Below are positions 36,110 through 64,000 of a DNA stretch of 64,000 nucleotides, in pieces. The DNA lies in the NCBI GenBank assembly GCA_021730635.1, contig JAJNNC010000001.1, positions 992,001-1,056,000 on the forward strand, in the 5' to 3' direction. The position numbers were made by a program, and so were the translations under genes. The DNA comes from Catalimonadaceae bacterium JC749. GTDB taxonomy: Bacteria > Bacteroidota > Bacteroidia > Cytophagales > Cyclobacteriaceae. The notes under the pieces are model-generated. The model was not told where the DNA came from. It saw only the letters and a program-made list of their open reading frames with translations, and did no database searches. Within the stretch, counting starts at the first letter, position 1, and the number at the start of each line of letters is the position of its first letter.

Positions 36110-37189
36110 CTATTGGGCTTGTTTCAAAAAGTCGGTAGCTGTTTGCCGGACAAGTGTATTTTCGCTTTTTAACAGTGCTCGGGCAGCAACGATTACTTTT
36201 TCAGAATGATCCGGGCTATGTAGTAGCACCTGTAATATTTTCATCTTATACCATTCGTTTTCTCCACCCAAATCATTCCCCAGTGCCTCGTACAAGTCTG
36301 GTGCAAGCGTTGTCAGGTTAGTAAGGGCAGGTAAAATCAGCAACTTTTCATCCAGAGAAGCCTTCCGGTAAATAACCGCCAGTTCAGACTGCATGGATGG
36401 CTGATCTACATTAGATCTTACCAAAGCATTGGCGGATAATTTTTTAAGATAATCATCCGTTTCTGCTTTTAAACCAGTGATCACTAAGGTATCTGTCAAG
36501 GGTGATGGAGGCAATTTTCCTAATCCTACTAAGTCCAGCAAGAAGTAACGATATTCCTTTTTCCCATTCTTCAGCAGATTGCTGGTAAGCGCAGTATTAT
36601 TTTTTAATTCCTCAAGGGTCAATGTGGCCAATTGTTCTTTCTCTCCCTGATGGATCAGGTGCCAGATTGTATGGGTGGTATAGACAGCATCTTTTACTGC
36701 TTCGGAGGCTATTTCCTTTTTAGTGGCTCCGGAAGCTCCATCTACTACTTCTTCGTAGGGATCATCAACCAATTCCGACAATTCATACTCTCGTAACAAA
36801 GACCAATCGTTATGTAGAATACCCATCAATTGATCATAATCCTCCTGAGAAAAATCACTATGATCAGTTTTGGTAAGATGTTCTCCATATATCTCAAGCC
36901 CAAGGAATCTACCGGTGCAATCCCAGTAGATTCCTATGTCTATGAGTTTGCATTCACCTGTGAGGCATACCGGAGTTTTAATTCTTCTATACCAGTATAA
37001 TATCCCTTGGCCATCTTCCAGGGCTGTGATGTCAACCCTTTCATGATTGTCATCCCAAATGCTGTATGCCCCTTCTATGCGCTTTGTCTTGAGGTGCAGA
37101 AGTTCTTTACTCCGGTAATAAACATCCTCTGTATAACTTCCCAATAGGTAGAATACACAGATAAGAAGAAAGAAAAATGCTTTACTCAT
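36110..37189 (-). CDS. FMN_bind-like protein with flavinylation motif and helical-repeat tail (copy 1)
   Basis: A 359-residue exported protein. An N-terminal hydrophobic segment (MSKAFFFLLICVFYLLGS) is a signal or anchor. Cys75 and Cys80 ('VCLTGEC') precede 'IYWDCTGRFLGL'. Then 'VVDGASGAT' (Thr156) matches the Dgx(S/T)(G/S)AT motif that the ApbE transferase uses to attach FMN to Thr in NqrC, RnfG and other FMN_bind proteins. 'YTTHTIWH' follows. The C-terminal half is alpha-helical and HEAT-like. Paralogous to 52052-53188. It directly follows the giant FAD oxidoreductase (16-base gap), so a redox partner role is inferred. Start at the ATG at 37189; a GTG at 37204 also exists. Confidence 0.7.
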   Translation of the reverse strand: MSKAFFFLLICVFYLLGSYTEDVYYRSKELLHLKTKRIEGAYSIWDDNHERVDITALEDGQGILYWYRRIKTPVCLTGECKLIDIGIYWDCTGRFLGLEIYGEHLTKTDHSDFSQEDYDQLMGILHNDWSLLREYELSELVDDPYEEVVDGASGATKKEIASEAVKDAVYTTHTIWHLIHQGEKEQLATLTLEELKNNTALTSNLLKNGKKEYRYFLLDLVGLGKLPPSPLTDTLVITGLKAETDDYLKKLSANALVRSNVDQPSMQSELAVIYRKASLDEKLLILPALTNLTTLAPDLYEALGNDLGGENEWYKMKILQVLLHSPDHSEKVIVAARALLKSENTLVRQTATDFLKQAQ

Positions 37190-37205
37190 AAATGTATACC
37201 TCACC

Positions 37206-40200
37206 TTAAATTTCTACTGTTTTGATCAACTGCTTGCCTGGTCTGGGAAATTGTAATTCGGCAATAAGTTTTTTCCAGGCTGTAGCATGATACCCATGAT
37301 CTTGTTGTGTCAGCTCCCTGAGTTCTGAAGCTGCAAAAGCTTTGTAGTGATGATGTATATCTTCCAAGTAATCGGCCAAGAGATGATAGCCGGTTTTACC
37401 ACCACAACGGGCTAAAGCAGCAGCTATTGAAATCTCCAAAAATCCTCCATACACTCTCCATCTCACTTGGTCATACTCTTCTGTGAGAAATCCACCGATA
37501 TTATCATCTTTCAAGAGCTTTTCAAAACCGGGAATAAACGCAGGGTCAGGAACCCGTTCGGCATAAAAACACAAGTTCAGAATCCTATTGTAAAAAGGAA
37601 TGATTTTTAAATCAATTCTTCCATTGAAATAAGCATTGGATCGTTCTACTATTCCTCCGCCAGACACTGTATGCTCAATGATGTGCTTAATGGTAGGATT
37701 ACTCTTAGCATCCCCCGTCATAGCTAGTAAGCCTATATTCTGATTGATACGCCAAAACAAACCTTCCAGTATATTCTTCTCCCGTCCTCTGATAAAGTCA
37801 TAATCATCAACATAGCCGCCTGGGTAACCCTGGTCTAGTTCCTGAGCAAATAGTTCCTGAAGTTCTTGCACAATCAGGTCGTTACCTACAGGATCTCCAA
37901 ACCAAGCCAGAGCCTTGGCAGTCAAAAGTTTTCCTTCCTCCAGAAACTCGCCTTCACTACTAGCGGCTTTTTTAAAAAATTCCCGCAACACCGGAAGGGC
38001 TTTTTCCCTGGGTAACTTGCTACATTCAAAAAGGTACTCTCTTTCACCATTGGCCAGATGCATAATTCTTCTACGGATTTCTTCCTCCTTTTCCCGAAAG
38101 TTCCAGGTAGATTTTCTGGCATAATCTGAGGGTAAATATTCCAGTCCGGACCATTCTTTCTGCAGGGAGGAAATATCAAAACTTCTAGGCTGGAGGTTAT
38201 TCCAAGCCAAATGGGCTGCTATTTGCCCTGTAAGATACCCCAGTACGATAATATCTGCCGTCATACGGGTAAACTGGAGTGCATTGTGTGTTTGACTGAT
38301 GCCCCTGCCTGAAATCAGCAAACCATCCAAGGTTTTGGGTACAATACACCGGTACGGGATCTCTACGACGATGTCGTTGGAATGGGGGAGCAAAAAACCG
38401 CATTTTGAAAATTCAGAAGACCCTACATTATGTGGATCAAAATCACTGCTGGCCAGGGAGATCACATCTTCAAAATGTGTCCCTTCTGCCGCATCCAGAA
38501 AGTTCAGCACATAGATTCCCTCAATTCTCCGGGATTCCCTTACCGTCAGCATAGGGTGGAAATCATAAAAATGTGCTTCATAATGAGACAAAAACAGTCC
38601 TCTTTGCAGTTCCGATATTTTTGTGTTGTCTATCACATCGTAATCCCGGTTGGTAGGGGAGGGCACATTCACACCAGCAATATCCCATTGACTATAATTC
38701 TGTGTTTCTCCGGTTCTGGAATTTCCTATAAAATAGGCTGCTCCTGCGAAAGCAGCAATGTCACCATCTCCCGTGGCATCAACCGTAACCTGACTTTCAA
38801 TGGCTTCCAGTTTTCCATGGCGGCATATCACAATACCTTTGACTGTATTATCATTTACCAAAGTGTGGCACATGATGGCGCCTCCCATAAACCTGCCACC
38901 GGCATTCAGCACACCTGTCAGATGATATAATTTGCGGCCGGTTTTCTTGGTCATGTTGGTTTCAAAAGCGAGCCTTTCAGCATCTTCGCTTTGTTTTTTG
39001 AAAAACTTATTATCTTTTACCCCATGGTAGTAGCCCATCACACCTCCCATAGTTTTGGTACCACCCAGATCGTTAAAATAGTCTGCCACAATAGTATTAG
39101 CTCCTTTTTCGGCAGCCCCCATGGCTACAAAAGCACCCCCCGTGCCACCTCCGGCTACCAATACCTGACATTGTTCTTTGTTTTTGACCAGATTGGTAAA
39201 ATCAAAGGTAACCTTCTGTAAGGGGATCGAAAGTCCTGGTTCTTCTACCTCCGAAAAACGTAAATCGGTAAAAGGAATCGTATTGCCGATGGTGTGTAAT
39301 GAATGGATTTGCGCATTGGTTTTGGCATATTTGATAGCATCCACCATTTCTTTTGCCGCTGCTTCTATGGCTTCTATTTTTTTGTAGCTTAAAGCAGCCG
39401 AGGCATTAGGCAAAACATAATGGCCTTTCAGGGTGGGGGAAGGCAGCGTATCATCTGCGAGGAAAAGGGAGGTTTCCAGTGGGAGCTGATTAATCTGTGC
39501 TCTTTTCAGGGAAGCATCCAGGCTGCTTAATTTCTCTCCCAATTTGGCAGAAATTAATCTGGCCTGGTGTTCGATTTCCTCCGGTTTCTGCGAGCCGACA
39601 GGGAACTCAAATTCTATAAAAAGCTGGTTGTCTGAAAGTTTTCCCTGATGGAATTTTAAAGTATTCTCGTGTATACCAAATTCATCTGAAACTTCAACTT
39701 CCTTTTTCTGTGGATCACTAACCTCTGACATTTCCAATACAAAACCTGCACGGTCTATCCGGTAGTTCTCTGCCAGAATACCTCTGCTAAACAGTACCTG
39801 ATCGGAAGCATCAATAAAGCTTTTGCATTTTACCGAATGGAAACCATGTTTACTGGCCAGCAGCACTCCCTGTACAACTTTGTCATCGGTGAAGATGCCG
39901 CAAACATCGGTCATCAACAGCACATGCACTTTGTTGACCAGCAGATTACGCAATAAACCTTTTCTGACACTTCCTGAGAATAGCAGTACTTCGTCGCCAT
40001 ACTGGCTTTCTCCATAGCCTTTGCCACCCGATTTTTTACGTTCTTGTTTTTCATCAGAGGGCAAAAACAATTGTTTAAGCTCAGGCCGAAAGTTGTCGAA
40101 GCCTTCGGCTCCCATCCACAGTTTTCCTTTGGCTGCCATTTCGTAACCAGGGCTGGTTCTTTTTTCAACAATCAGTACCTTTTTGCCTTGCTGCGCAGCG

Positions 40201-40385
40201 TGCACAGCGGCAAAGTACCCTGACAGCCCGGCTCCATTGACCACCAGGTCATATGCTGCAAAACTGCTATTCCCTGAAAACTGCCGGTTGATTTCAGCCA
40301 TGGCTTGTAAATTGACAAGGCCTGGAGGGATAAAAACAGCTCCAGTGGCTGACAGACTTATGTTTAAAAATTCTCTTCTTTTCAT
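37206..40385 (-). CDS. Giant Tat-exported FAD-dependent oxidoreductase with two Rossmann motifs
   Basis: A 1059-residue protein. The N terminus is a twin-arginine signal ('MKRREFLNISLSATGAVF'); the longer frame is not signal-like. Two dinucleotide-binding stretches are present: 'NGAGLSG' at 50-56 and 'GGGTGG' at 412-417. The second is followed by 'TVDATGDGDIAAFAGAAYF', typical of PF12831 FAD-dependent oxidoreductases. The first half looks like a diverged copy and may not bind FAD. After about residue 760 the protein is helical and rich in repeats. It is about twice the usual family length of 550. It sits between SusD (14-base gap) and the FMN_bind-like gene, so it is probably the main oxidase of this locus. 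Reaction unknown. Confidence 0.8.
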   Translation of the reverse strand: MKRREFLNISLSATGAVFIPPGLVNLQAMAEINRQFSGNSSFAAYDLVVNGAGLSGYFAAVHAAQQGKKVLIVEKRTSPGYEMAAKGKLWMGAEGFDNFRPELKQLFLPSDEKQERKKSGGKGYGESQYGDEVLLFSGSVRKGLLRNLLVNKVHVLLMTDVCGIFTDDKVVQGVLLASKHGFHSVKCKSFIDASDQVLFSRGILAENYRIDRAGFVLEMSEVSDPQKKEVEVSDEFGIHENTLKFHQGKLSDNQLFIEFEFPVGSQKPEEIEHQARLISAKLGEKLSSLDASLKRAQINQLPLETSLFLADDTLPSPTLKGHYVLPNASAALSYKKIEAIEAAAKEMVDAIKYAKTNAQIHSLHTIGNTIPFTDLRFSEVEEPGLSIPLQKVTFDFTNLVKNKEQCQVLVAGGGTGGAFVAMGAAEKGANTIVADYFNDLGGTKTMGGVMGYYHGVKDNKFFKKQSEDAERLAFETNMTKKTGRKLYHLTGVLNAGGRFMGGAIMCHTLVNDNTVKGIVICRHGKLEAIESQVTVDATGDGDIAAFAGAAYFIGNSRTGETQNYSQWDIAGVNVPSPTNRDYDVIDNTKISELQRGLFLSHYEAHFYDFHPMLTVRESRRIEGIYVLNFLDAAEGTHFEDVISLASSDFDPHNVGSSEFSKCGFLLPHSNDIVVEIPYRCIVPKTLDGLLISGRGISQTHNALQFTRMTADIIVLGYLTGQIAAHLAWNNLQPRSFDISSLQKEWSGLEYLPSDYARKSTWNFREKEEEIRRRIMHLANGEREYLFECSKLPREKALPVLREFFKKAASSEGEFLEEGKLLTAKALAWFGDPVGNDLIVQELQELFAQELDQGYPGGYVDDYDFIRGREKNILEGLFWRINQNIGLLAMTGDAKSNPTIKHIIEHTVSGGGIVERSNAYFNGRIDLKIIPFYNRILNLCFYAERVPDPAFIPGFEKLLKDDNIGGFLTEEYDQVRWRVYGGFLEISIAAALARCGGKTGYHLLADYLEDIHHHYKAFAASELRELTQQDHGYHATAWKKLIAELQFPRPGKQLIKTVEI

Positions 40386-40399
40386 GTTATTTTTATCGG

Positions 40400-42079
40400 T
40401 TAATAACCCGGATTTTGTGTCAAATTGGAGTTGATGTCTAATTCCTTTTGTGGGATTGGCCATAAATAATCTCTGGCAGGGTTGAAATTTCGGGTATCAA
40501 ACTGCCGAAGTTCATCCCCATAGGCATCATAATGCGGTATGCCATTCTCATCAAAAGTGGGAATAAAGCTTTCCTCATAATCCCGTTGGGGACGGCCGTA
40601 TAAAGTACCCGGCATTACATCTTCTGCTATTTTCCATCTTCTTAGGTCAAAAAAGCGCAATCCTTCAAAAGGAAACTCTACTTTGCGTTCCTGTCTGACG
40701 ATCTTCCTCAGTTCATCCTGCGACTTTCCGGCAGCTATGGCGGGTAAGCCAGCACGAAGTCGTACAGCGTTGATGGCATCATATACACTTAGATCCAGTT
40801 CTCCTTTTTCTATCTTCGCTTCGGCATACATCAGCAATACCTCGGCATATCGTACCAGCATGATGTTCAGTTCTGATTCCCCTCTGAATTCTCGTTCCTC
40901 ATCGGCCACATACTTCCGGTACTGATAGCCTGAAAAGGTAGCATAAGCATGGGTTACCTCCAGGTTATTGACTCTCCTGGGTGGATTTGTGTTATAGTCC
41001 CAGACCATGAGGCTGTCAGGATGTGTTTCAAATTGGTATCCTAAGAATACAGAACCTGGCACCACGCAGGTGGCCTGCAGGCGGGGATCACGATTTTCAA
41101 AAGGGTTACTTGCATCGTATAAGGGTGATTGGTCTATCGGCAAACCATCTATACTTTCATAAGAATCGATCAATGCTTGGGTAGGAATCTTGGTCACATA
41201 GCCCCCTCCAAGTCTGCCCCGGGTATGAATGGGTGTTTGATGCGTCAACTGATTTGCCCGGCTAAACTGAATGGTCATGATTTCTTCCGAATTATTCTCA
41301 GCAGCATAAGTAAAAAGTTCACTATAGTCCGGATACAGTTGATAGAGGTTCAAATCCATGATACGCTTGGCAGCCGTAGCGGCTATGTCCCATTCCTCAC
41401 TGAATAGGGCTTCTCTGGCTTTGATCGCTAAGGCAGCCCCTGCTGTTATTTTCCCTCTTTCATTAGCAGGGTATTCAACGGGTAATATACTGGCCACCGC
41501 ATCAAGTTCATTCAGAATAAAAGTATGGATTTCTGACCTGGCCGTCCGGGGTAGTTTTGCATCAAAGACATCGAGGGGTTCGACCGTGAAGGGAACGTCT
41601 CCGTAAAAACTGGTTAACAGATGATACCAATATGCTCTGAAAAAACGAGCTTCTGCTGCAATCCTTTCATATACCTCGGGATCTGTCACCTCCTGCGCGT
41701 GTTCCATATTTGCCAGTAAACGGTTACATTGGCCGATTGTCTGATAGGCACTGTTCCATGTTCCGGTAATGAGCGGCTCGTCATTGGGGGTGATGAGTCC
41801 CTGGGATAATAATTGCCAGGAGCTAAGATTCCGGTCCCAGGAGATATCAGTGGCCAGGTCCAGCAGAAACTGAAAAGGGAGATGAGTTACATCTCTATCC
41901 GTGAAGTACAGGCTTCGGTAAATGGCATTGATCGACAGCTGCAATTCTGACTCTGTACTCCAGAAAGTAGCATCGGATGGAGAGTCCAGGGGAAATTTCT
42001 CGAGATAGTCTTCTGAACAGCCGTTGAAACCTATCAGAAACACGACTAACAGGAAGTGGAAATATTTCTTAGTTTTCAT
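40400..42079 (-). CDS. SusD/RagB-family outer-membrane lipoprotein (locus 1)
   Basis: A 559-residue surface lipoprotein that captures a substrate for the SusC transporter upstream. The signal ends in a lipobox ('IGFNGCSEDYLE'), then 'FPLDSPSDATFW', an N-terminal SusD signature. TPR-like helices and the C-terminal 'RRWKIAEDVMPG' and 'PARDYLWPIPQKELDINS' stretch are typical. The gap after SusC is 11 bases, so they are translationally close. Paralogous to the second SusD at 59184. Ligand unknown; no glycoside hydrolase lies in this locus, which is unusual for a sugar-polymer PUL. Confidence 0.95.
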   Translation of the reverse strand: MKTKKYFHFLLVVFLIGFNGCSEDYLEKFPLDSPSDATFWSTESELQLSINAIYRSLYFTDRDVTHLPFQFLLDLATDISWDRNLSSWQLLSQGLITPNDEPLITGTWNSAYQTIGQCNRLLANMEHAQEVTDPEVYERIAAEARFFRAYWYHLLTSFYGDVPFTVEPLDVFDAKLPRTARSEIHTFILNELDAVASILPVEYPANERGKITAGAALAIKAREALFSEEWDIAATAAKRIMDLNLYQLYPDYSELFTYAAENNSEEIMTIQFSRANQLTHQTPIHTRGRLGGGYVTKIPTQALIDSYESIDGLPIDQSPLYDASNPFENRDPRLQATCVVPGSVFLGYQFETHPDSLMVWDYNTNPPRRVNNLEVTHAYATFSGYQYRKYVADEEREFRGESELNIMLVRYAEVLLMYAEAKIEKGELDLSVYDAINAVRLRAGLPAIAAGKSQDELRKIVRQERKVEFPFEGLRFFDLRRWKIAEDVMPGTLYGRPQRDYEESFIPTFDENGIPHYDAYGDELRQFDTRNFNPARDYLWPIPQKELDINSNLTQNPGY

Positions 42080-42090: not shown

Positions 42091-45000
42091 TTAAAAGGTT
42101 GTTTCAAGGCCAAAGGCAAACACTTTTACCATCGGATAAAAATCACCCTGCCCCACCGGCGATTCGGGATCATAGCTGTCATAGAAGTTGTCCAGGGTCA
42201 GCAAGTTTTGTCCACTGAAGAACACCCGGCATTTAGCGACGGAAATTCTGTTTGTGAAGGTGCTGGGCAAGGTATACCCCAACTGCAAGTTCTTCAGACG
42301 AAAATAGGCAGCACTCCTCACCCAATAGGATGACACCTGCTCATTGTTAGGGTAATTGAAGGTTAATCTGGGGTAGGAGGCATTCGGATTGTTCTCCGTC
42401 CAGTGATCTTTGTGCCATTCCTGAGCAGTACCTCCCAGATAAAAAGCCATAGTGGCAAAATTATCCAGATACCCATCCGCTTTGCCTACTCCCTGGATAA
42501 ACACCCCCAGATCAAACCCTTTGAATTGGCCGGACAAATTTAAGCCGTAGGTGTATCTGGGAATTGGGTTTCCAATGACTACCCGGTCCGTGGCATTCAC
42601 CACTCCGTCGGGCTCGTCAGCGATGCCATCACCGTTCACATCTACGGACTGGTCTTTGTACTTAATATCTCCGGGGCTTGACGGACCAAACTGACCCGCA
42701 TGGTTATCAATTTCTTCCTGCGTCTGAAAAAGTCCTAGGGCTTCCAGTCCGAATAAGGCATCGATGGGTTGTCCTTCCATTCGCACAGTGCGTGTGCCAA
42801 TGTAAGGACCCGTGCCTACCAGGTCAACAATTTTATTACTAACATTGGCCAGGTTGGCACCAATGCTGTACTTGAAGTCATTGATATTATCGTTGAACTG
42901 TACGCGTAAATCCCAGCCTGCATTCCGTACTTTCCCTGCGTTTTGAAAGGGAGGGTCTAACCCAGCTATCCGGGGTAATGGTAATTCCAACAGAATATCG
43001 TATGTATTTTTTATGTAATAGTCGGCAGTGATATAAAACTTGCCCATGCCGGCATCCAGTCCTACGTTCACCATTTCAGTGGTTTCCCAGGATATCTGAG
43101 GGTTGGCGGCGTTTAGTAAAGCGCCGCCTATAGCCGGTATATCATTGCCATAGACATAATTCAACCCCATGGTAACGGCAGATGCAAAAGGGTAGTTTCC
43201 AATCAACTGGTTACCCAACTTTCCCCAGGAAGCTCTGAGCTTTAAGTCATAGAGCCAGTCATCGGAGGTGTTGGAGAGGAAAGTTTCTTCAGAAATTCGC
43301 CATCCTACGGAGAAAGATGGGAAAAAACCGTACTTGTACCCTTCGGCAAATCGAGAGGAACCATCTATCCGGGCATTGGCCTCGAAAAGATACTTTTCCT
43401 GATAGTTGTAGTTGACTCTGCCAAAATAAGACATCAGCGCCCATTCGTAGGCCGATCCGGTAGCGGTTTGGTTGGCGGTAGAGCCTACGTTTAATACTTC
43501 GTAGTTTTCTAAAGGAAACTGATCCCGGAAACCCTGTATCCACTCATTTTTATAATCAATGGCTTCCCATCCTCCCAGCAGATTCAAGGAATGGGCACTA
43601 AAATTCTTATCATAGGAGAGCAGGGCTTTGTAGTTGTTGGTGCTTTCTTTCATATACTGCTCTGTCAATTCAGCCCGGTAAGGTGTCGGATTGATCATGA
43701 AGCCGTCCGGGTAATAGAGGTTCACCTGCTTGCGAAACGACTTATAGTGGTTATATGATTTATTCGGAGCCACCTGGAAGGCAAGGTTGATTCCCGGCAC
43801 AGGTTGCCAATCCATTCTCATGTTTACAATAAACTCATCACTTTTTGTATGGGACATACCTCCGTCTTCCAGGGTGGCCCATCCGTTGTTTCCATCCCAG
43901 CCGATACCCCAGGAGCCATCCTCATTTTTTCCCGGAAGGTTATGAGGGTAACGTGCCAGCCAGTACCATCCCTGGGGAGGCTCTGCGTTGTTCTCACTTT
44001 TCCCTAATAGATCTATATTAAATTGCAGGTTATCTTTCAGTCTGATGTCAGAGTTGAGCCGGAGGTTAAACCTTTTGTAATTGGAATGCATCATGCCATC
44101 CTGGTCCAGAAAAGACAATGAGCCCAGCAAACTGATTTTTTCGCCACCGCTGTTAATACTCAGGTAATGATTTTGCTGAAAGGCTCTATCCTTTAGCATC
44201 ACCTCGTGCCAGTCAGTTTCCGGGTACTCATCGGAAGGAGCTGCTGTTTTATACGCATCGATGTATTCCTGAGAAAAGGGTTCTGACTGCCCCACATTAC
44301 GGTGTGCTTCGTTGATCATGACCATGTGGTCGTACCCGCTTACTTTATCCATGAGCTCAGTGGGTTGCTGCCAACCGGCAGATGCCCGATAGTTAATGGC
44401 AAACTGTTGTTTTTTGGCCCGTTTGGTGGTTACTAAAATTACCCCGTTTGCCGCTCTGGACCCGTAGATAGCCGCTGAGGCGGCATCTTTTAGCACAGAA
44501 ATACTTTCTATTTCATTCACATCCACATCATTGAGGTTAAAGGGAATGCCGTCTACCAAAACGAGTGGATTAGCATCTCCTGTCGTTCCAATGCCCCGGA
44601 TGCGTATGACACCACCATCCGAGCCGGGCTTTCCTGAATTTTGGGTTACGGTAACCCCTGGGGCCAGGCCTTGTAATGCCATAGAGGCCTGACCTACCGG
44701 GCGAGATACAATATCCTGCTCATTGATGGACTCTACGGACCCAGTGACATTCACTTTTTTCTGCGTTCCGTACCCTATCACTACTACTTCCTCTAAGCTC
44801 TGCACATCTTCAGCCATGGTTGCATTAATCTCCGTCCGTCCGTTTACTGCCACTTCCTGGGTGATATATCCTATAGAGGAAAAAACGAGAGTATCGTCTT
44901 CCTCAGGCACACTGATATGATAACGACCATCAATATCAGTGATAGTACCGGTAGCGGTGCCTTTTACCAACACATTCACCCCCGGTAAACCTTCTCCATC

Positions 45001-45435
45001 AGTAGAGGAAGTGACAGTACCGTTCACCTGAATGGCTTGAGAGATTTCAATGGTTTGCTGTCTTTTTCCTTCTTTTACCGGTTTTACATGGATGTTGTCA
45101 TTCACCTGTTTGAAGTGAACTCTGGCTGTTTTACCAATATCCAAAAGCACGTGTTCCAGGGTTTGCTCATCCGCCTGAACGGTGATACCCTTTCGGCCCG
45201 GCAAGTCACTTTCTTCATAAGTAAAATGAAAAGAGGTCTTGGATTCAATGACCTGTATGACCTCTACCAGGGTTGCATTTCTGATGTTTAAGGTGATGTG
45301 CACATCTTTCACACTTTTGTATTGTGCTATCCCATCTGTTGCAAATAATAAGGTAAAGGTGAAAAGCTGTATCATGAATCCATAGCCTATATATTTACTG
45401 GTCATCATGAGTAGTCTTAGTAGGTTGTTTTTCAT
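42091..45435 (-). CDS. SusC/RagA-family TonB-dependent transporter with STN domain (locus 1)
   Basis: A 1114-residue outer-membrane transporter. In order: signal peptide (ends near 'FATDGIAQ'), an STN domain at about 45-115, a CarboxypepD_reg-like domain at about 135-210 ('VNGTVTSSTDGEGLPGVNVL'), a TonB-box-like 'LEEVVVIGYGTQKKVNVTGS', the plug ('MALQGLAPGVTV', 'IYGSRAANGVILVTT') and a 22-strand barrel ending in Phe. STN-bearing SusC proteins signal through a FecR-type anti-sigma factor to an ECF sigma factor, and those genes lie upstream. Head of the operon with SusD, the giant oxidoreductase and the FMN_bind-like gene. Confidence 0.96.
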   Translation of the reverse strand: MKNNLLRLLMMTSKYIGYGFMIQLFTFTLLFATDGIAQYKSVKDVHITLNIRNATLVEVIQVIESKTSFHFTYEESDLPGRKGITVQADEQTLEHVLLDIGKTARVHFKQVNDNIHVKPVKEGKRQQTIEISQAIQVNGTVTSSTDGEGLPGVNVLVKGTATGTITDIDGRYHISVPEEDDTLVFSSIGYITQEVAVNGRTEINATMAEDVQSLEEVVVIGYGTQKKVNVTGSVESINEQDIVSRPVGQASMALQGLAPGVTVTQNSGKPGSDGGVIRIRGIGTTGDANPLVLVDGIPFNLNDVDVNEIESISVLKDAASAAIYGSRAANGVILVTTKRAKKQQFAINYRASAGWQQPTELMDKVSGYDHMVMINEAHRNVGQSEPFSQEYIDAYKTAAPSDEYPETDWHEVMLKDRAFQQNHYLSINSGGEKISLLGSLSFLDQDGMMHSNYKRFNLRLNSDIRLKDNLQFNIDLLGKSENNAEPPQGWYWLARYPHNLPGKNEDGSWGIGWDGNNGWATLEDGGMSHTKSDEFIVNMRMDWQPVPGINLAFQVAPNKSYNHYKSFRKQVNLYYPDGFMINPTPYRAELTEQYMKESTNNYKALLSYDKNFSAHSLNLLGGWEAIDYKNEWIQGFRDQFPLENYEVLNVGSTANQTATGSAYEWALMSYFGRVNYNYQEKYLFEANARIDGSSRFAEGYKYGFFPSFSVGWRISEETFLSNTSDDWLYDLKLRASWGKLGNQLIGNYPFASAVTMGLNYVYGNDIPAIGGALLNAANPQISWETTEMVNVGLDAGMGKFYITADYYIKNTYDILLELPLPRIAGLDPPFQNAGKVRNAGWDLRVQFNDNINDFKYSIGANLANVSNKIVDLVGTGPYIGTRTVRMEGQPIDALFGLEALGLFQTQEEIDNHAGQFGPSSPGDIKYKDQSVDVNGDGIADEPDGVVNATDRVVIGNPIPRYTYGLNLSGQFKGFDLGVFIQGVGKADGYLDNFATMAFYLGGTAQEWHKDHWTENNPNASYPRLTFNYPNNEQVSSYWVRSAAYFRLKNLQLGYTLPSTFTNRISVAKCRVFFSGQNLLTLDNFYDSYDPESPVGQGDFYPMVKVFAFGLETTF

Positions 45436-46749: not shown

Positions 46750-47361
46750 TCAGGAAAGCAAATAGATGAGCGTAAGAAGAATGATCGGAGCAATCTCATG
46801 CACCTGGATCTGTTCTTTTAGGAAACGTAACGCTTTATAGATATGGTTTTTAACATTGCTGGTACTCGTATTCAATTTTTCCGCAATCTCACTGTGACTT
46901 AACCCTTCAATACGGCTCATTGTAAACACTTCTCGTCGTACTGGAGGCAGTTGATTACAGGCTGCCTGAATGAGGTCTCTCAGTTCATTAAAATGAACCT
47001 TGTTTTCAGTGACATTTTCTGTTTGACTGCCATATAAAGTCATGTATTCTTTATAAGCAAAAAGATAGGCTTTACGTCTGGCTTTATTATAAACCAGATT
47101 CTTAGCCATAGTGTAAAGAAAACTACTAAATTTATATTGAGGATCAATCCATTGTCTTCTTTCCCAAACCTTCAGAAAAACCTCCTGCACCACTTCTTTT
47201 GCATCCTCTGCATCATGGGTAAGCTTCATTGAATAAGCAAACAGCGTAGGCTCATAAGCACAAAACAATTCATTAAAAGCGGCTTTATCCCCTTCTTTGA
47301 GCTTGTTGATTAACTGTTTATGTTGATGATCATCTTGTGATGCCATATTATAATGTTTCAT
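46750..47361 (-). CDS. ECF RNA polymerase sigma factor (FecI-like)
   Basis: A 203-residue ECF sigma-70 factor. Region 2 spans about 25-95 ('AFNELFCAYEPTLFAYSMKL', 'EVVQEVFLKVWERR'), and region 4 about 125-180 ('LPPVRREVFTMSRIEGLSHSE', 'LNTSTSNVKNHIYKALRFL'). The C terminus ends in a hydrophobic tail ('APIILLTLIYLLS'). It is the expected transcriptional activator of the susC/susD operon downstream, controlled by the FecR protein. It probably also drives its own gene or the paralogous locus 2, which is not testable here. Confidence 0.93.
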   Translation of the reverse strand: MKHYNMASQDDHQHKQLINKLKEGDKAAFNELFCAYEPTLFAYSMKLTHDAEDAKEVVQEVFLKVWERRQWIDPQYKFSSFLYTMAKNLVYNKARRKAYLFAYKEYMTLYGSQTENVTENKVHFNELRDLIQAACNQLPPVRREVFTMSRIEGLSHSEIAEKLNTSTSNVKNHIYKALRFLKEQIQVHEIAPIILLTLIYLLS

Positions 47362-55710: not shown

Positions 55711-57393
55711 TTAATTTGCCGGTGCCAACCGTTGCTGGTCTTTCAGCAATATTTCTCTCAAACTTTTATAAGGAAGATCCTGCAAGGCAACCTTTTTGTC
55801 TATTGACAGTGCGGCAGCCGTAGCCGCTGATTGTCCCAGCACCATAAACACAGGTTCCATCCGGATAGAACCAAAAGCAATGTGCGAAGCACTCAAGCAT
55901 ACCGGAACCAACAGGTTACTGCATTCGGCTTTTTTTGGAATGATAGAACGGTAGCTCACTGGATAAGGGCCAGCCACTTTTGACTGCACATTCCCTTCAT
56001 TTTGCACATATCCATTGGCATCAATGTAACGCTGTATATGATGTGAATCCATGCCATAGGCCCCCAATCCTATAGGGTCTTCCGCTACTTCTAACCCTTC
56101 GCAATGATGCTGGGTCATCACATAGTCACTGACCAGGCGCCTGGCCTCTCTGATATATAGTTGTTGTTGCCAGCCGTCTTCTCTGGCAAATTCATCCTTG
56201 GCAGTTCCCCAACGGGATACTTCATTCCTCACCATTTCAGGAATTCTGGGATGATAAGCCAGCGTCCACATCAATCCTTTCTGGTAGTTTCTGTGCGCCT
56301 CGGTAATCCTTTCTCTCTCCTCGTAGGAAGCTTCCGGGTAGTCATAGTTCTGCCCTATGAAATCGGTGGAAAAGCCATGCCTATTATTGGTATCTGTTTT
56401 ACGGTTGGGCATGGCTGAATTGATCCAGGGAATCTGTGTCTCACCGGCCTCATAGTTTCTGAGGAGCAATTCGTAATTACGTTCGTCATAATTGGCAGGC
56501 TTCTCAAAAGGAATTCGGTTATCAGGGTGGTCCGTCAAACACATACGAAAGCAATAGGCTTGGATTTTGTGATCGCCGCTTCCGTCTATGCCAGGCCCCT
56601 CTGTGTTGATATAAGGCAGTACTCCACTGGATGGGTCCCCTTTCTTCACATAAGGGTCTACGCCTGCTACAAAGTTATGGTTTTGCCCGTTGATAGATAC
56701 GTTTTTAAGTAAAGACAAACTGATTTTATTCGCCTGCACGCCATTCAATGTTTCGCCATACTGCTCATTGGGTTCCCGCCCGAGGGTATAGCTTACGCCT
56801 GCAGCAGCCATCAAATCACCTTCATAGGTAGCATCTATGAACATCTTACCTGCATAGGTTTCTCCGCTTACCATCTCAATTTGCCTGATCGATGTGCCAT
56901 TTTTCACCACTCCATTTTCCCGATTCAGTCTTTGTCCGTATATCAGCTTTACTTGCTCTGAGGCCAGCATATCCTTGTACACCTGCAGGGCCGCCGATGG
57001 TTCAAAGGTCCACATGGCCTCTTCTCCTTCTTCTGTTCGGGTCTGGCCTCCGTCCATATAATCTTTTTGTTGTTGCCACTTCCAGTTTGACGGATCATCA
57101 TAGTATTCGCGGATCTTCTGATAAAACTCTCTGGCTATGCCTCCTATGGCTGCTTTGTTACCGATATCCGTCTGACCTAACCCTCCTGTGGTAAGTCCGC
57201 CGATTCTTTGATAAGGTTCAATCAACAACACACTTTTTCCCATCCTTGAACTCTGGATAGCTGCAGCTACGCCAGCCGATGTGCCACCATAAATAACGAT
57301 GTCATACTCAGTGGTTTGAGACCCTTGGCTAACTCCCGAGAGGGTTATCCCTAACAGGCTTACCATCAAAAATATCGTCTTCTTCATATCCAT
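55711..57393 (-). CDS. Exported FAD-dependent oxidoreductase (array member 2)
   Basis: A 560-residue PF12831-type protein with a cleavable signal ('[21 protein letters not shown]') and no lipobox. '[22 protein letters not shown]', '[16 protein letters not shown]', '[23 protein letters not shown]' and '[24 protein letters not shown]' define the family. An ATG at 57393 shares its A with the upstream stop (TGATG), so it is coupled to member 1; a second ATG at 57387 could be the start, and the TTG at 57396 is not needed. 129 bases separate it from member 3. Reaction unknown. Confidence 0.85.
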
Positions 57394-59072
57394 CAATTGT
57401 GAGCCAGTTCTGCTGATTGCTCAAGTAAGGGATCTTCCTTAAGTTTCTGTTGAATATCAGCAACATTTACCCTCTGTACGGGTACGTCCTGATCGATAGC
57501 CAATGAAGCGGCTACGGCTGCAGACTGGGCTAGCACCATAAATACAGGCTCCATCCGGATAGACCCATACGCTATATGAGAAGCCGACAGACAAACAGGT
57601 ACCAACAAATTTTCACATTCCTCCCTTTTGGGTGTTATAGCCCGGTACGCCACAGGATAGGGAGGAAAACCGTGTACTTGTATATCTCCTTCGTTCTTTA
57701 CCTGCGCACCGCCTTTCCCATCATCCACCACTATCCTTTGAATGTGATGGGAATCCATGCCATAAGCGGCTAGCCCTACTTTATCCTCTACTACCTCGTC
57801 TCCTACTACATTATGTTGTGTCATCACATATTCACCGATCATTCTTCTGGCTTCCCGGACATAGAGTTGATGCGGAAAGTGATCATTATCCACAAATTCA
57901 TCTTTGCAATAGCCTAAGGATAGCATCTTCTTTCTAAGTTCTTCAGGAACCCTTTCGTCATGACCGAGAAAATACAAAAGTCCTTTGGTATAGTCTTCGT
58001 GGGCTTTCCATATTTCCGCACGAGTTTCATAATCGGCTTCAGGATAGGCATAATTCATTCCAATCATATCGGTTGAAAACCCTCCCTTGTTGTTGACATC
58101 CATATCCCCTTTGGGCATGTTCCACCTGGCCAGTAAATAATCGTTGATATCCGTACTCTTTTGTTTTTCAATGAGCCTGGCCAGTAAGGTATACATTGCC
58201 GGATCATAGTTTTCCGGTTTACTGATAGGCACCTGGTTGGTTGTATCCTGCGTCAGACATAAGCGGAAGTTGTATGCCTGCACTTTTTTATCTCCAGCAC
58301 CAATAGGGGCCAGCGTATCATCACTGATCCCCCAAAGCAGGCCACTAGCCGGGTTTCCTGCTTCCACATAAGGATCCACGCCATCTGGAAATTGATGACG
58401 GTTAACTGGAATCCTGCTAAAATAGTCCACCTTGATGGAATCGATATCTTCTGGCAATTCTTCCGGATACAGTTGTACGCCATTCAGCGATTCCTTGTAG
58501 ACATCAGAAGATTCTCTACCAACAGCATAGGATACACCTGCTTTGGGGAGCAGATCTCCTTCATAGCTACAATCTAAAAATACTTTTGCTTTTACTTTTA
58601 TTTCATGGTGGGAGGTAGGATCCGCACTATCCATCAAAGATATTTCTACGATGTTTTTATCTTTGGTGGCTGCGCCGGAAAGCCTCTTCTGAAATAATAC
58701 TTCCAGCTCTGCTTCATCCACATATTGCTGGATGGTATTGGAAGCGACAGAAGGTTCGAAAGCCCACTGTTCAGACTTGCCATATGCCTTACCTACTCTC
58801 TTGTAAAAATCCAAAGCCAGTCCTGTGACCGCTTCTTTATTCCCAAAATCAGTCCAGCCCAATCCACCGGTAGTCATTCCACCCAAGTATTTACCTGGTT
58901 CGATCAATAAAACGGTTTTGCCCAACTTTTTGGCCGAATAGGCTGCCATTACTCCTGCTGCTGTGCCCCCATAAACACAAATGTCTACTTCTCTTACATT
59001 TTCTCTTTCTTCAGGGGTGTTACAGGCCAGGAGGGTTACTAACAAAAAATAAACAATACTTCTAATGATCAT
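57393..59072 (-). CDS. Exported FAD-dependent oxidoreductase, lipoprotein (array member 1)
   Basis: A 559-residue PF12831-type protein. The signal ends in a lipobox ('[11 protein letters not shown]'). '[22 protein letters not shown]' binds FAD, then '[16 protein letters not shown]' and '[23 protein letters not shown]', which differs from the other members ('Cys-Ser' for 'Ala-Thr'). The C-terminal '[24 protein letters not shown]' matches. It is the first gene after susD of locus 2, 111 bases downstream, with two hairpins in the gap. Its stop overlaps the start of member 2. Confidence 0.85.
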
Positions 59073-59143: not shown

Positions 59144-59183
59144 GGATTGTGCTCTGAAGAAGATCACAAACTTTTCTACCAGG

Positions 59184-60851
59184 CTAATAGCCAGGGTTCT
59201 GTTCAAGTTCAGGATTGGTCTCCAGTTCAATGCGCGGTATAGGCCAGAGATAATCCCTATCCGGATTAAAAGTCCTCGTTTCAATAATCACCATCTGGTC
59301 TGCATTGCTTACATTGTCATAACTGGGGGTTCCGATCTCATCAATCTCAGGCGCTTCAGACAAAAAGCCGGTCTCTATTCTTCCGCGAAGAGGGCCGGGC
59401 ATTATTTCATGGGCGATTCTCCAGCGACGAATATCAAAATATCGTAAGCCTTCCATGCCCAGTTCATGTCTTCGCTCTTTTCTCACAATATTCCGAAGGT
59501 CCTGCTGGCTTTTTCCTTCGGCAATTTCAGGCATCTCCACAGTTGGTCTACGGCGAATCGCATTGATTGCTTCGTACACTGATGGATCAAGTTCATTCAT
59601 TTCTATCTTTGCTTCAGCGTAATTGAGCAGCACTTCAGCATACCGGAAAAGGATCATATCTTGCTCACTATTGCCTACATCTGTCGGGTAATCTACAGGA
59701 TCTACATGTTTTCTATACAAGTATCCTGTGAAAGAAGAATACGGGTGTGTCGCCTCTGTATTCTCAATGCGGACCGGAGGTGTCTCATTATAGTTCCAGA
59801 TCATGGTCGTATCAGGATTGGTATTAAAGACAAATCCTACATATACACTATTCGGTACTACGAGTGTATAATTTAATCTGGGATCTCTGTTTTCAAATGG
59901 ATTCATCGGGTCATATAAAGGAGACTCATCGATCGGCAACCCATCAATACAATCGTAGGTATCTACCATATCCTGTGGGGGCTTTTTATTAGAGTGCCCC
60001 AGGCCTAATCTGGAGAAAAAATTTCGGGGCATAGCATGGGTCTGCACCCCTCTTAAATACTGAACTGACATAATAATTTCAGGCGAATCTTCTCCGGCAT
60101 ACTTGAACAATTCAGCATAATCATCATGTAACTGGTATGTGCCTAATCCCATTAATTCTTCTGCGGCCTGTGCGGCTTCTTCCCAACGTTCATTATAAAG
60201 GGCCACTCTGGATTTAAGTGCCAAGGCTACTCCCTTCGTCGCTCTACTCTTGTTTTCGGGTTCAGAGGGCAAAACTTCAATAATGTCATCCAGTTCGGCC
60301 AACATAAAATCGACTACGTCAGATTTTGGGGTTCGTGGCATTTGTGCCTCTTCCAAGGAGATGGCCTCTGTCAACAAGGGGACATCACCATAAAGCTCGC
60401 TTAGGTAAGAATAAAAATACACTCTTAAAAAACGCACTTCCGCTAACAGGCGATTGTATTTTTCCGCATCCATGTCCTCCGACAAGTGGGATGCTCCTGA
60501 TAAAATATAATTACTACGACCTATTCCACGATAAAAGGCAGACCAAAAAGATCCTGTAAAATCGTTATCAGAATTCGCATCCCCTCTACCGAGTGCCTGC
60601 AAACCGCTGCCATTACGGTCCCAACCATTGTCTGACGCAAACTCCAAGGTTAACACGAAAGGATGGCCTACACCCGGTGGGTGAAACCAAAGCGTATTGT
60701 ACACCCCCGTTACTGCTAATTCTAACTCTGTTTCATTTGTTAGAAAATTTTCTGAGGAAGGAGAATCCAAGGGTAATCGCTGGAGATAATCCTCACAGGA
60801 ATAATGAATCAAGCACAAACACAATATTATTATATATCTCAGTAGTTTCAT
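59184..60851 (-). CDS. SusD/RagB-family outer-membrane lipoprotein (locus 2)
   Basis: A 555-residue SusD. The lipobox is in 'LIHYSCEDYLQ', followed by 'LPLDSPSSENFL', TPR-like helices, and the C-terminal 'RRWRIAHEIMPG' and 'PDRDYLWPIPRIELETNPEL'. It is clearly paralogous to the SusD at 40400 ('MNPFENRDPRL', 'TGYLYRKHV' in both regions), so the two SusCD pairs probably bind related ligands. It follows susC by 18 bases. Confidence 0.95.
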   Translation of the reverse strand: MKLLRYIIILCLCLIHYSCEDYLQRLPLDSPSSENFLTNETELELAVTGVYNTLWFHPPGVGHPFVLTLEFASDNGWDRNGSGLQALGRGDANSDNDFTGSFWSAFYRGIGRSNYILSGASHLSEDMDAEKYNRLLAEVRFLRVYFYSYLSELYGDVPLLTEAISLEEAQMPRTPKSDVVDFMLAELDDIIEVLPSEPENKSRATKGVALALKSRVALYNERWEEAAQAAEELMGLGTYQLHDDYAELFKYAGEDSPEIIMSVQYLRGVQTHAMPRNFFSRLGLGHSNKKPPQDMVDTYDCIDGLPIDESPLYDPMNPFENRDPRLNYTLVVPNSVYVGFVFNTNPDTTMIWNYNETPPVRIENTEATHPYSSFTGYLYRKHVDPVDYPTDVGNSEQDMILFRYAEVLLNYAEAKIEMNELDPSVYEAINAIRRRPTVEMPEIAEGKSQQDLRNIVRKERRHELGMEGLRYFDIRRWRIAHEIMPGPLRGRIETGFLSEAPEIDEIGTPSYDNVSNADQMVIIETRTFNPDRDYLWPIPRIELETNPELEQNPGY

Positions 60852-60869
60852 TGTTGAATTATTTTGAAA

Positions 60870-63800
60870 TTAAAAACTGATATTCAATCCGGCAGTAAAT
60901 ACTTTCATCTGCGGGTACCATCCACCATTACTTACCGGTGCTTCCGGATCATATCCCTCATAAAAATTATCAATGGTGAACAGATTCCGCCCACTCAGAT
61001 AGACACGCATTCGCTGTATGTTATTGATAACGCCCTGAGGAATGGTATAACCGATTTGAATATTCTGCCCTCTCAGGTAAGCAGCGTTCTTCATCCAGAA
61101 ACTTGAGTTCTGTTCATTATTCACCTGATTGAATGCCAAACGAGGATAGGTAGCATCTGTGTTATCGGGCGTCCAACGGTCTTTGTGTTGTTCTTGTACA
61201 GTGCCCCCCAGGAAGAAAGGCATAATACCCTGACCGTATAAATAGCCATCTGCTTTGCCTACGCCCTGCAGAAACAAAGAGAAATCAAATGCTTTATAAT
61301 CCAGATTAAACCTGGCACCAAAAGTGAATCTGGGTATTGGGCTGCCAATCACCGTTTGATCCTGGTCATTGATGATCCCATCGTTGTTGATGTCACGATA
61401 TTTAATATCCCCGGGTGCTACTGTACCAAACTGTGTCGCATGCGCTTCTACTTCATCTTCTGACTGGAAAAGGCCAATGGCTTCATAGCCGAAAAATGAT
61501 CCTATGGGATATCCTTCACGGTCTACCTGAAGGCCGCTCTGCTGAATACCTTTCATATCTAGTATTTCATTTTTCACATCAGAGAGATTGAAGGTAATGC
61601 TGTAATTCAGCTCTCCGATACGATCCCGGTAAGTGGTCACAAAGTCCCAACCTCTGTTTTCCACTACTCCGGCATTTTGGAAAGGAGGATTTAACCCCAA
61701 AGTTTGCGGGATATTCAATTGCAGCAGAATATCATTGGTTAGTCTATAGTAGTAGTCAAAGGTGATATCGAGTTTGCCCCAAAGATTCGCTTCTATACCT
61801 ATGTCAGTAGTCTCAGAGGTTTCCCACACTATATCAGGATTTGCCATATCATTCAACGCTGCCCCAGGGGAAATAGCATTATTAAACACATAATCTGCGC
61901 TACTACCCCCGATTTGGATAAAGGCCGCATAAGGATACAGTCCTATATTTTGGTTACCCAACTGGCCCCAGGAGGCACGCAACTTCAAATGATCTATAAA
62001 ATTGGTCATCCCTTGCATGAATGGCTCCTCAGAGATTCTCCATGCTGCAGAAAAGGAGGGAAAGATACCTTGGCGATTTCCCTCAGCAAAACGTGAGGAC
62101 CCATCACGGCGTACATTGGCCTCAAGCAAATACCTATCCTGGAAGTTGTATTTAACTCTTCCAAAAAAGGAACGCAAAGCCCAGTGGGTACCAGAACCTC
62201 TGGTTAATTCGTTGGCCCGGTTACCCGCATCAATTTCCTGGTATTCAGGCAGTGGAAACACCTCTCTATAGGCGGAGACCCAGTTGTTGGTCTGGTCTTC
62301 CTGCTGAAATCCTGCCAGAAAACTTAGCTGATGCATTTCATTAAAACTTTTATCTACAGTCACTACGGCCCGCAGGTTGTTGTACCATTCGCGATCAAAA
62401 CGTTCGGTAAGAGAGTTTCTTTGAGGCACAAAGTGGGTGGGGGTCACTCCATCTCTGGCATAGGTTTGGGTGATATCGAAAAACCTGACTTCATGGGGGT
62501 TCTCAAACCTTGGGGCATACATGACCTCCGCCGAGAGCCAGTTGGTAAATTGATAGTTAGCTCTAAAATTCAGGATAGCATCCAGCCCTTCCTTGGTCCA
62601 TATGCCACCATCCTTGGCACGTGCCAGTGGATGATCCCCATTCCAACCTTCTCCATATAAGCCATTAGACAATACACCCACTTCATTAGAAGGGATACGG
62701 CGCATCCAGTGAAATACATAACCCGTGCCATCAGCCGGCTGGTTTTGTTCGGTGCGACGGAGAAAAACATCCATTGAGGTTGTTAACTTATCCGTAATAT
62801 CTATATCTGAATTCACGCGAATGTTGACCCTGTTAAAATCTGTACTCGGGATAATACCATCCTGATCCAGGTAACTTAGGGAAGCAAAGAGTCTTGCCTT
62901 ATCACTTCCTGCATTAATCCCCAGATTATGATTTTGCATAAAGGCACTGTTCTTCATGGTAAGATCCTGCCAGTCTGTATCAGGATACTGGTCAGAAGGC
63001 ATCTGATTTCTGTGCGTCTCGATTTGCTCTTGTGTCCAAATAGGGGTGAGCCCCACATTGGTATAGGCTTCGCTTAGTAACGCCATATGATCAGCCCCAT
63101 TTACAATGTTGGGCATATCAGTAGGTACCTGGAATCCGGCATAACCATTGTAATTTACGCTAACGCCTTCTTTACCCCGTTTGGTAGTCACCAGGATCAC
63201 CCCGTTTGCAGCACGGGCCCCATAGATAGCCGCTGAGGCAGCATCTTTGAGTATAGATATATTTTCAATGTCATTAGGGTCTACATTACTTAGATCCGTT
63301 TCTACCCCATCCACCATCACCAGGGGGTTGCTATCACCTAAAGTACCGATTCCTCTGATACGGATGTTGCCTCCATCCGCACCAGGCTGTCCGGAGCGTT
63401 GGGTAACTGTTACCCCCGGCGCTACCCCTTGCAATGCCATTGTAGTTTGGCCTACAGGGACTTTTTCTAATTCACTCCCTTCAATAGAGCTGACCGATCC
63501 GGTAAGGTTCACTTTTTTCTCTGTTCCGTAACCCACTACTACTATCTCTTCCAAACTTCGTACGTCTTCTTCCAAGATTACATCAAGGGTCGTTCTTCCA
63601 TTTACGCCAATTTCGCGAGAAATGTATCCGATAGAAGAGAAGAGGATCGTATCATTTTCGTTAGGCACATTCAGACTATAAGCCCCTTCTACATCCGTAA
63701 CCGTTCCTGTATTGCTCCCTTTTATAATCACATTGACGCCGGGAAGCGGTTGCCCACTTGCCTGATCAGTCACCTTACCTTGTACCACCAAGGCTACTTT

Positions 63801-64000
63801 AGCTATCTCGACGGCTTCAGCTTTCTCTCCTGTCACCTTAGGTTTTACATTGATCACATCGTTGTATTGCCTAAACTTTAAATTGGATTGCCGGGAAAAA
63901 TCGATCAAAATCTCAAACAGTGACTGTTTCTTATAATCTCCATTTACTTTTTTCTGCCTTACGTCACTTATATTGTAGGAAAAACTAAAGCCAGTGGCTT
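60870..64000 (-). CDS. SusC/RagA-family TonB-dependent transporter (locus 2), partial
   Basis: The frame runs from the stop at 60870 to the right edge, so the N terminus lies outside the window. About 1043 residues are visible, starting in an STN domain ('SFSYNISDV', 'LFEILIDFSRQSNLKF'). The carboxypeptidase-like domain ('VQGKVTDQASGQPLPGVNV'), TonB-box-like 'LEEIVVVGYGTEKKVNL', plug ('MALQGVAPGVTVTQRSG', 'IYGARAANGVILVTTKRG') and barrel follow. It is closely paralogous to the SusC at 42091. The STN domain predicts a FecR/sigma pair upstream, to the right of the window. The TTG at 63908 is not the start. Confidence 0.95.
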   Translation of the reverse strand, partial: ATGFSFSYNISDVRQKKVNGDYKKQSLFEILIDFSRQSNLKFRQYNDVINVKPKVTGEKAEAVEIAKVALVVQGKVTDQASGQPLPGVNVIIKGSNTGTVTDVEGAYSLNVPNENDTILFSSIGYISREIGVNGRTTLDVILEEDVRSLEEIVVVGYGTEKKVNLTGSVSSIEGSELEKVPVGQTTMALQGVAPGVTVTQRSGQPGADGGNIRIRGIGTLGDSNPLVMVDGVETDLSNVDPNDIENISILKDAASAAIYGARAANGVILVTTKRGKEGVSVNYNGYAGFQVPTDMPNIVNGADHMALLSEAYTNVGLTPIWTQEQIETHRNQMPSDQYPDTDWQDLTMKNSAFMQNHNLGINAGSDKARLFASLSYLDQDGIIPSTDFNRVNIRVNSDIDITDKLTTSMDVFLRRTEQNQPADGTGYVFHWMRRIPSNEVGVLSNGLYGEGWNGDHPLARAKDGGIWTKEGLDAILNFRANYQFTNWLSAEVMYAPRFENPHEVRFFDITQTYARDGVTPTHFVPQRNSLTERFDREWYNNLRAVVTVDKSFNEMHQLSFLAGFQQEDQTNNWVSAYREVFPLPEYQEIDAGNRANELTRGSGTHWALRSFFGRVKYNFQDRYLLEANVRRDGSSRFAEGNRQGIFPSFSAAWRISEEPFMQGMTNFIDHLKLRASWGQLGNQNIGLYPYAAFIQIGGSSADYVFNNAISPGAALNDMANPDIVWETSETTDIGIEANLWGKLDITFDYYYRLTNDILLQLNIPQTLGLNPPFQNAGVVENRGWDFVTTYRDRIGELNYSITFNLSDVKNEILDMKGIQQSGLQVDREGYPIGSFFGYEAIGLFQSEDEVEAHATQFGTVAPGDIKYRDINNDGIINDQDQTVIGSPIPRFTFGARFNLDYKAFDFSLFLQGVGKADGYLYGQGIMPFFLGGTVQEQHKDRWTPDNTDATYPRLAFNQVNNEQNSSFWMKNAAYLRGQNIQIGYTIPQGVINNIQRMRVYLSGRNLFTIDNFYEGYDPEAPVSNGGWYPQMKVFTAGLNISF

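Follow-up and report, generated by a model that had tools for sequence, protein, structure and literature searches.

The analyses presented here concern a 64,000-nucleotide (nt) stretch of DNA, hereafter the window, from Catalimonadaceae bacterium JC749 (Bacteroidota; genome size 8.0 Mb; contig JAJNNC010000001.1 of assembly GCA_021730635.1, positions 992,001 to 1,056,000 of the forward strand), which carries on its minus strand two loci, A and B, that combine a SusC/SusD uptake pair with flavin adenine dinucleotide (FAD) oxidoreductases of the Pfam family PF12831 and with a partner protein that we call FMNb. FMNb is a real protein family that the curated libraries have missed, and its pairing with PF12831 enzymes is strongly conserved. 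We consider it probable that FMNb is an electron carrier flavinylated by ApbE and dedicated to exported PF12831 enzymes, mostly in SusCD uptake loci. The genes of the two loci are as follows.

Locus A and adjoining genes:
46750-47361 (-), extracytoplasmic function (ECF) sigma factor (Pfam), upstream regulator
45571-46614 (-), FecR anti-sigma factor (Pfam), upstream regulator
42091-45435 (-), SusC1, TonB-dependent outer-membrane importer (Plug and CarbopepD_reg_2)
40400-42079 (-), SusD1 lipoprotein (SusD_RagB, E 9e-55)
37206-40463 (-), 1085-residue oxidoreductase with two PF12831-type regions (PF12831 E 9e-63, three stretches)
36110-37204 (-), FMNb1, putative flavinylated partner with DGASGAT and a Cys pair
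34539-36023 (-), TolB-like protein (named by eye; no Pfam family above cut-off)
32765-34408 (-), CstA-family transporter adjoining locus A (PF02554, E 2.5e-159)

Locus B:
60870-63998 (-), SusC2, running off the window (plug domain)
59184-60851 (-), SusD2 lipoprotein (SusD_RagB, E 1e-49)
57393-59072 (-), PF12831 oxidoreductase of the ~560-residue type (E 6e-110; lipobox-like start by eye, not flagged by rule)
55711-57396 (-), PF12831 oxidoreductase of the ~560-residue type, hydrophobic start (E 1e-119)
53185-55581 (-), 798-residue PF12831 oxidoreductase with an N-terminal EAESF...GGW beta domain (E 7e-79)
52052-53206 (-), FMNb2, putative flavinylated partner with DGISGAT, a Cys pair and a helical-repeat tail
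50327-52018 (-), PF12831 oxidoreductase of the ~560-residue type, lipobox-like start (E 2e-116)
48641-50320 (-), PF12831 oxidoreductase of the ~560-residue type, lipobox-like start (E 3e-115)

The order SusC, SusD, PF12831 enzyme(s) and partner, which the original prediction had reported to occur twice, is borne out by the open reading frames (ORFs) and their Pfam matches, as is the reported ATGA coupling of FMNb2 to the 798-residue oxidoreductase: the start of FMNb2 (53188, six codons inside the listed ORF) overlaps the stop of the enzyme gene. For FMNb1 the most likely start is the ATG at 37189. All six window enzymes score 213-401 bits against PF12831, for which the curated cut-off is 27 (E values from 9e-63 to 1e-119). 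Upstream of locus B, just beyond the end of the window, lie sigma- and FecR-type genes, recognized with profiles built here (seen in L241). Export, proposed for all products, was judged by simple N-terminal rules (hydrophobicity, lipobox, twin-arginine): both FMNb proteins and all but one of the six PF12831 proteins begin with a hydrophobic stretch (two of these five enzymes flagged as lipobox-like and a third lipobox-like by eye). The exception is the 1085-residue protein, which is not hydrophobic enough to be flagged; downstream of an internal Met, a twin-arginine stretch can be seen by eye.

No family of Pfam or NCBIfam matches FMNb above its cut-off. Searched with a profile built from the two window sequences, 12 of 60 genomes of the same family proved to have relatives, and a 19-sequence profile found them in 8 of 395 genomes across the phylum and in 54 of 390 in the order (two by weak tail matches only); the window genome is counted among the matches in each of these three draws, and a HEAT-only weak match (L028, family draw) and the weak matches of G653 and G727 (order draw) were dropped before the counts. 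When 97 FMNb sequences are aligned (95 from the fetched loci of relatives and the two window genes), only six columns are invariant, namely Cys85, Cys90, Leu116, Phe124, Asp162 and Thr168. Asp162 and Thr168 stand, in 97/97, at the exact spacing of the rule for flavinylation by ApbE, D-x-x-[S/T]-G-A-[S/T], as given in a passage of PMC12052999. Position four of the motif is Ser or Thr in 75/97, and both window proteins conform (DGASGAT in FMNb1, DGISGAT in FMNb2). The N-terminus is hydrophobic in 90 of 95 FMNb proteins by the same simple rules, and the AlphaFold model of FMNb2 (mean predicted local distance difference test score, pLDDT, 84) has an N-terminal domain rich in strands, after which come helical repeats. 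From the motif we infer that FMNb may bear a covalently bound flavin mononucleotide (FMN).

Eighty-nine of the 95 FMNb genes (at 93 loci of relatives) directly adjoin a PF12831-type gene on the same strand, in both orders (52 and 37), with a median gap of 4 nt and with 73 of the 89 within 30 nt or overlapping; SusC or SusD lies within seven genes of 72/95. The counts from fetched loci come from crude ORF calling on stretches of at most 20 kb, with contig ends and an over-representation of genus g276, and the rule applied leaves L030 out of the 89, even though the neighbour of its FMNb, cut by the contig end, resembles the two-domain enzyme. We also drew 60 genomes evenly from the family, with the window genome among them. 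There, a strong PF12831 gene (E 1e-40 or better) is found no farther than 2 kb from 16 of 19 FMNb genes, where 0.18 would be expected, and from 15 of 17 when the window genome is left aside. The three misses are window FMNb1, which adjoins the two-domain enzyme, whose split PF12831 matches score weaker; G032:C182, which adjoins a contig-cut protein resembling that enzyme; and G029 (L044), with no PF12831 gene nearby. Across genomes, a strong PF12831 gene is present in 11 of the 12 with FMNb and in 20 of the 48 others (Fisher p 0.0027); this threshold, reached in 3 of 14 control genomes, was chosen because the default one matches PF12831 in 14/14. The enrichment of PF12831 genes near a DGxSGAT-containing protein, suggested as a check at the outset, was thus found. 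At L044, the ORF ahead of FMNb is short and beta-barrel-like and looks truncated (by eye).

A second check suggested at the outset, the search for apbE in this genome and its relatives, came out as predicted: the window genome has one ApbE gene, which lies a long way from the window and is not part of the Nqr operon, and all 12 FMNb-bearing genomes examined have ApbE, as do 7 of 14 control genomes. Such presence per genome is weakly telling, because NqrC of the window genome carries the motif too. At the level of the locus, an ApbE gene occurs in 21 of the 93 FMNb loci and shares a gene run with FMNb in 20 (identified by Pfam at E 2e-80 for one cluster member and 1.5e-71 for one further gene).

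The original prediction called the two loci paralogous, which holds for the transporters (SusC1 and SusC2, mutual best matches among the sequences compared, are 48.5% identical; SusD1 and SusD2 about 48%) and not for the enzyme/partner pairs, which belong to different lineages, FMNb1 and FMNb2 sharing 26-27% identity. SusD2 is nearer to the SusD of L223 (65%) than to SusD1. Because only SusC and SusD are close, we reject a recent duplication of one locus into the other and, considering the distinct enzyme/carrier lineages as well, argue for a shared transporter ancestry with different enzyme/carrier pairs. In a tree of FMNb (labels on 88 of 91 rows, three fragments being excluded), the sequences group according to the type of their partner (about 600, 460 and 1054 residues): 3 changes suffice, as against 20.7 on average after shuffling. 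FMNb2 is the exception, lying in the clade with ~460-residue partners and yet coupled to the 798-residue enzyme, which is of the ~600-residue type. Since the FMNb of L183 (a Bacteroidetes bin, not in the tree), the likest to FMNb2 among 15 aligned (38%), also stands beside an enzyme of the ~600-residue type, this partner swap may be older than the window genome. FMNb1 and its two-domain enzyme form a separate conserved set with L051, L100, L101, L103 and L108 (enzyme 54-58% identical), and the TolB-like protein is kept beside the two-domain enzyme in L100, L101 and L103 (57-63% identical). The four ~560-residue enzymes of locus B resemble arrays elsewhere that have no FMNb in the fetched stretch (L223-L226) and that carry SusD or SusC/SusD, with sulfatases in L223-L225; L223 (G031:C33) also carries a PF06439 3-keto-disaccharide hydrolase and a GFO_IDH_MocA enzyme.

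Twin-arginine motifs occur in 5/5 two-domain, 10/19 ~460-residue and 14/65 ~600-residue PF12831 enzymes, against 8/499 other neighbours, as would befit, by analogy, enzymes exported with their cofactor bound. The ~600-residue enzymes bear the N-terminal EAESF...GGW domain. For the 798-residue enzyme (AlphaFold model, pLDDT 80) the nearest solved folds include flavocytochrome c fumarate reductases and urocanate reductase, all weak and generic matches (TM about 0.14-0.25 on the query); a GH26-CBM35 structure among them is a hint, from the model, that the EAESF...GGW domain might bind carbohydrate. Our structure and literature searches found neither a solved close relative of exported PF12831 enzymes nor a described function. 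Proteins of about 825 residues and of unknown family (L097, L054, L163) stand beside ~600-residue PF12831 enzymes with and without FMNb; by eye, cluster c9 and these 821-825-residue proteins make one family.

The window loci each have a SusC/SusD pair and, by Pfam, no carbohydrate-active enzyme, so that the original description of them as other than a classic polysaccharide locus stands for the window itself, but does not extend to many relatives, which have GH2 or sulfatase genes. Within six genes of FMNb at the 93 loci we find an SSF symporter in 34, LacI in 30, GH2 in 28 and sulfatase in 23 (these context families being sequence clusters, one member each checked by Pfam), and other FMNb loci have GH16, GH31, GH43 or alpha-rhamnosidase genes, a GH29-like protein (by eye) or, at L115, a lambda-carrageenase with sulfatases. 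For the Pfam tally of operon neighbours, 81 of 104 cluster representatives were scanned, and the top 25 of 133 families are listed. CstA-like genes, as beside locus A, occur in 3 of the 93 loci. PF06439-like genes occur in 1/93 FMNb loci and 3/20 other fetched stretches, and a 3-keto-glycoside pathway as the general role is, with that single FMNb locus, not supported.

Among the operon neighbours of FMNb that carry no label, the most frequent, in 25 of the 93 gene runs, is an exported-looking protein of ~835-976 residues without a Pfam match above cut-off (cluster c2, 29 loci including L035 and L065); the member at L065 has weak GH88, pectate lyase and GH127 matches, and c2 is probably an unnamed carbohydrate enzyme. 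In the window, downstream of CstA and locus A on the same (minus) strand, lie a PhoD-like phosphatase gene (29721-32330) and a sulfatase gene (28078-29679), the latter outside the range named by the original prediction (36110-64000).

The window has other features too. A pair of genes for an Xre/ParS-type antitoxin and a RES-domain toxin (47726-48540, plus strand) lies between the two loci; a patatin-like phospholipase ORF overlaps a TPR-sensor ORF (22499-25089, minus strand), a layout that may represent a signalling or defence pair; and there is a full-length gene (9857-11137, plus strand) for a serpin, a kind of protein uncommon in bacteria.

We suggest the following mechanism. ApbE would attach one FMN covalently to the Thr of D-x-x-(S/T/A)-G-A-T in exported FMNb, which in most members would have a helical-repeat tail besides the flavin site. 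By way of SusC and SusD, a large substrate, probably derived from carbohydrate, would reach or cross the outer membrane; the PF12831 FAD enzyme would oxidize it in the periplasm or at the surface, and electrons would pass from FADH2 to FMNb and on to the membrane chain. The covalent FMN, the electron flow, its direction and the class of substrate are the parts of this scheme that we infer.

A number of observations weigh against this scheme, some bearing on the carrier and others on the enzyme. The partner had been taken to be FMN_bind-like, a label that fails at the Pfam cut-off: against FMN_bind (PF04205; cut-off 22 bits) FMNb2 reaches 12.9 bits (E 0.18), over the motif only, FMNb1 gives no match, and of 19 family members 3 give any match up to E 10, the best at 0.075; alignment of the FMNb profile to FMN_bind (hhalign) extends over just 21 columns, located at the motif, with a probability of 26% (E 7e-4). 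The strict D-x-x-[S/T]-G-A-[S/T] is satisfied in 63/97. In the FMNb2 model the N-terminal domain is built of strands and a helix and the motif loop is of low confidence; Foldseek with this model did not place the N-terminal fold, armadillo-like tail matches dominating, and a sequence search of the PDB gave only chance or repeat-protein matches and one flavinylated domain (8p2b) at E 0.49. Moreover, ApbE-containing FMNb loci are confined to five genera of two families, and their motifs are strict in 6/23 as against 57/74 elsewhere, 16 of the 23 reading D-x-K-A-G-A-T with Ala at position four, which may reflect a dedicated ApbE with a shifted preference or only shared descent. It could be argued that FMNb is not flavinylated and that this helical-repeat, Cys-pair protein serves the oxidoreductase as a structural or substrate-binding subunit, its motif being convergent; the missing Pfam assignment, the armadillo/HEAT-like tail and the invariance of Cys85 and Cys90, which equals that of the motif Asp and Thr, agree with this. 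We regard it as very unlikely, considering that the Asp and Thr keep the exact ApbE spacing in every sequence and that ApbE shares the gene run of FMNb at 20 of 93 loci.

On the side of the enzyme, for 3/95 FMNb genes the fetched stretch contains no PF12831-type gene. Genomes with FMNb have 75 strong PF12831 genes, of which 24 are at most 6 kb from FMNb and 51 farther away. Among 80 named loci of the ~600-residue type (the best 80 of at least 585), FMNb is present in 14 or 15 and absent from 65 or 66, the FMNb tail of L140 being truncated at a contig end. In this named set the loci without FMNb include Bacteroidales (one Bacteroidales bin, L176, does have FMNb), Planctomycetes, Verrucomicrobia, Lentisphaerae and Armatimonadota, and on a FastTree tree of 171 PF12831 proteins (long branches flagged) the presence of FMNb changes at least eight times. 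A cytochrome in place of FMNb is rejected, CxxCH being found in 0/244 near genes at 66 loci without FMNb, and no membrane redox partner was seen among the recurrent neighbour clusters, in which not every neighbour was identified. Nor did a Pfam scan of 43 window proteins, which do not include every short ORF, reveal a glycoside hydrolase or lyase. Since most of the PF12831 genes examined lack a nearby FMNb and no cytochrome takes its place, these enzymes may not need an external acceptor. Their chemistry could be redox-neutral (a transient oxidation, elimination or isomerization, and re-reduction), with FMNb only a rescue or assembly partner in some lineages; to this the many PF12831 genes remote from any FMNb and the FMNb-less array with PF06439 and GFO_IDH_MocA genes would conform. 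We think this unlikely, as it leaves unexplained both the rarity of FMNb without PF12831 and the invariant ApbE motif, and PF06439-like genes are all but missing from FMNb loci.

A further alternative is that the flow is reversed, the membrane supplying electrons through FMNb to the PF12831 enzyme for a respiratory or detoxifying reduction of an imported substrate, as in urocanate and fumarate reductases with an FMN_bind domain. Flavinylated fumarate-reductase-like enzymes are known (described in part of PMC8238504), and flavocytochrome c fumarate reductases and urocanate reductase are among the nearest folds of the 798-residue model; these fold matches are, however, the weak and generic ones given above, and many FMNb neighbours are catabolic carbohydrate genes. 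The named FMNb-bearing loci include those of Dyadobacter, Larkinella, Chitinophaga, Olivibacter and Pleomorphovibrio. These genera are mostly aerobes, and we think reversed flow unlikely. Taking FMNb again as a flavinylated carrier of electrons from the enzyme, one may go further and see in it an unnamed class of ApbE substrate that makes exported PF12831 enzymes respiratory, so that aerobic Bacteroidota couple the oxidation of imported or surface-bound glycans directly, by means of a flavin carrier, to the electron-transport chain. Enzymes of several types would have recruited carriers, and partners would have been exchanged, as seen in the window; this we put forward tentatively, as a possibility somewhat short of an even chance.

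Flavinylated carriers serving extracytosolic enzymes are established (described in parts of PMC8238504 and PMC11334425). Like those carriers (FMN_bind, NqrC/RnfG, DUF2271 and DUF3570), FMNb is by its N-terminus exported, has a single D-x-x-(S/T)-G-A-T, lies beside the gene for a redox enzyme and in some loci has ApbE nearby; unlike them, it scores below the FMN_bind cut-off, possesses two invariant Cys residues and, in most members, a tail of helical repeats, and is partnered by PF12831 rather than by a membrane complex or a fumarate-reductase-like enzyme. The terms PF12831, FAD_oxidored and SusC are absent from the main texts of both papers. The fumarate reductase-like enzymes (FrdA of Listeria, UrdA and FccA) likewise join an FAD enzyme to a bound carrier across the envelope, and in FrdA and FccA an FMN-binding or cytochrome domain lies inside the enzyme (passages of PMC8238504), whereas FMNb is a separate gene, the FAD enzyme of the window system is PF12831 and SusCD is attached. 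SusCD polysaccharide utilization loci share SusC, SusD and ECF/FecR with the window, and many FMNb relatives add glycoside hydrolases and sulfatases, but the catalytic genes of the window are flavin oxidoreductases and none encodes a carbohydrate-cleaving enzyme. LacA, of the periplasmic lactose/glucoside 3-dehydrogenase LacABC, is a GMC-type flavoprotein with a cytochrome subunit, neither of which is seen here. LacABC, with a DUF1080 hydrolase, likewise serves sugar oxidation in the envelope before breakdown, in Bacteroidota and others (part of PMC9007349). In the open-licence literature the term PF12831 turned up in one paper, PMC9045290, whose only hit for SusC matches at a word start and may be a different word, and no description of the PF12831/FMNb pairing was found in that literature; we suggest that it would constitute a new variant of extracytosolic flavinylated electron transfer.

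Finally, exported PF12831 enzymes recur in glycan-degrading Bacteroidota and in other phyla, and a carrier of their own that bears an ApbE site offers a direct handle on their chemistry, since it predicts electron transfer and names the partner; loss of Thr168 is predicted to break the electron path. Covalent FMN on FMNb, if true, would make it a new family of ApbE substrates and a carrier family missed by the curated libraries, and would link flavinylation to SusCD nutrient uptake. If the proposed mechanism is true, these bacteria would have an unrecognized way to oxidize food molecules outside the cell interior.

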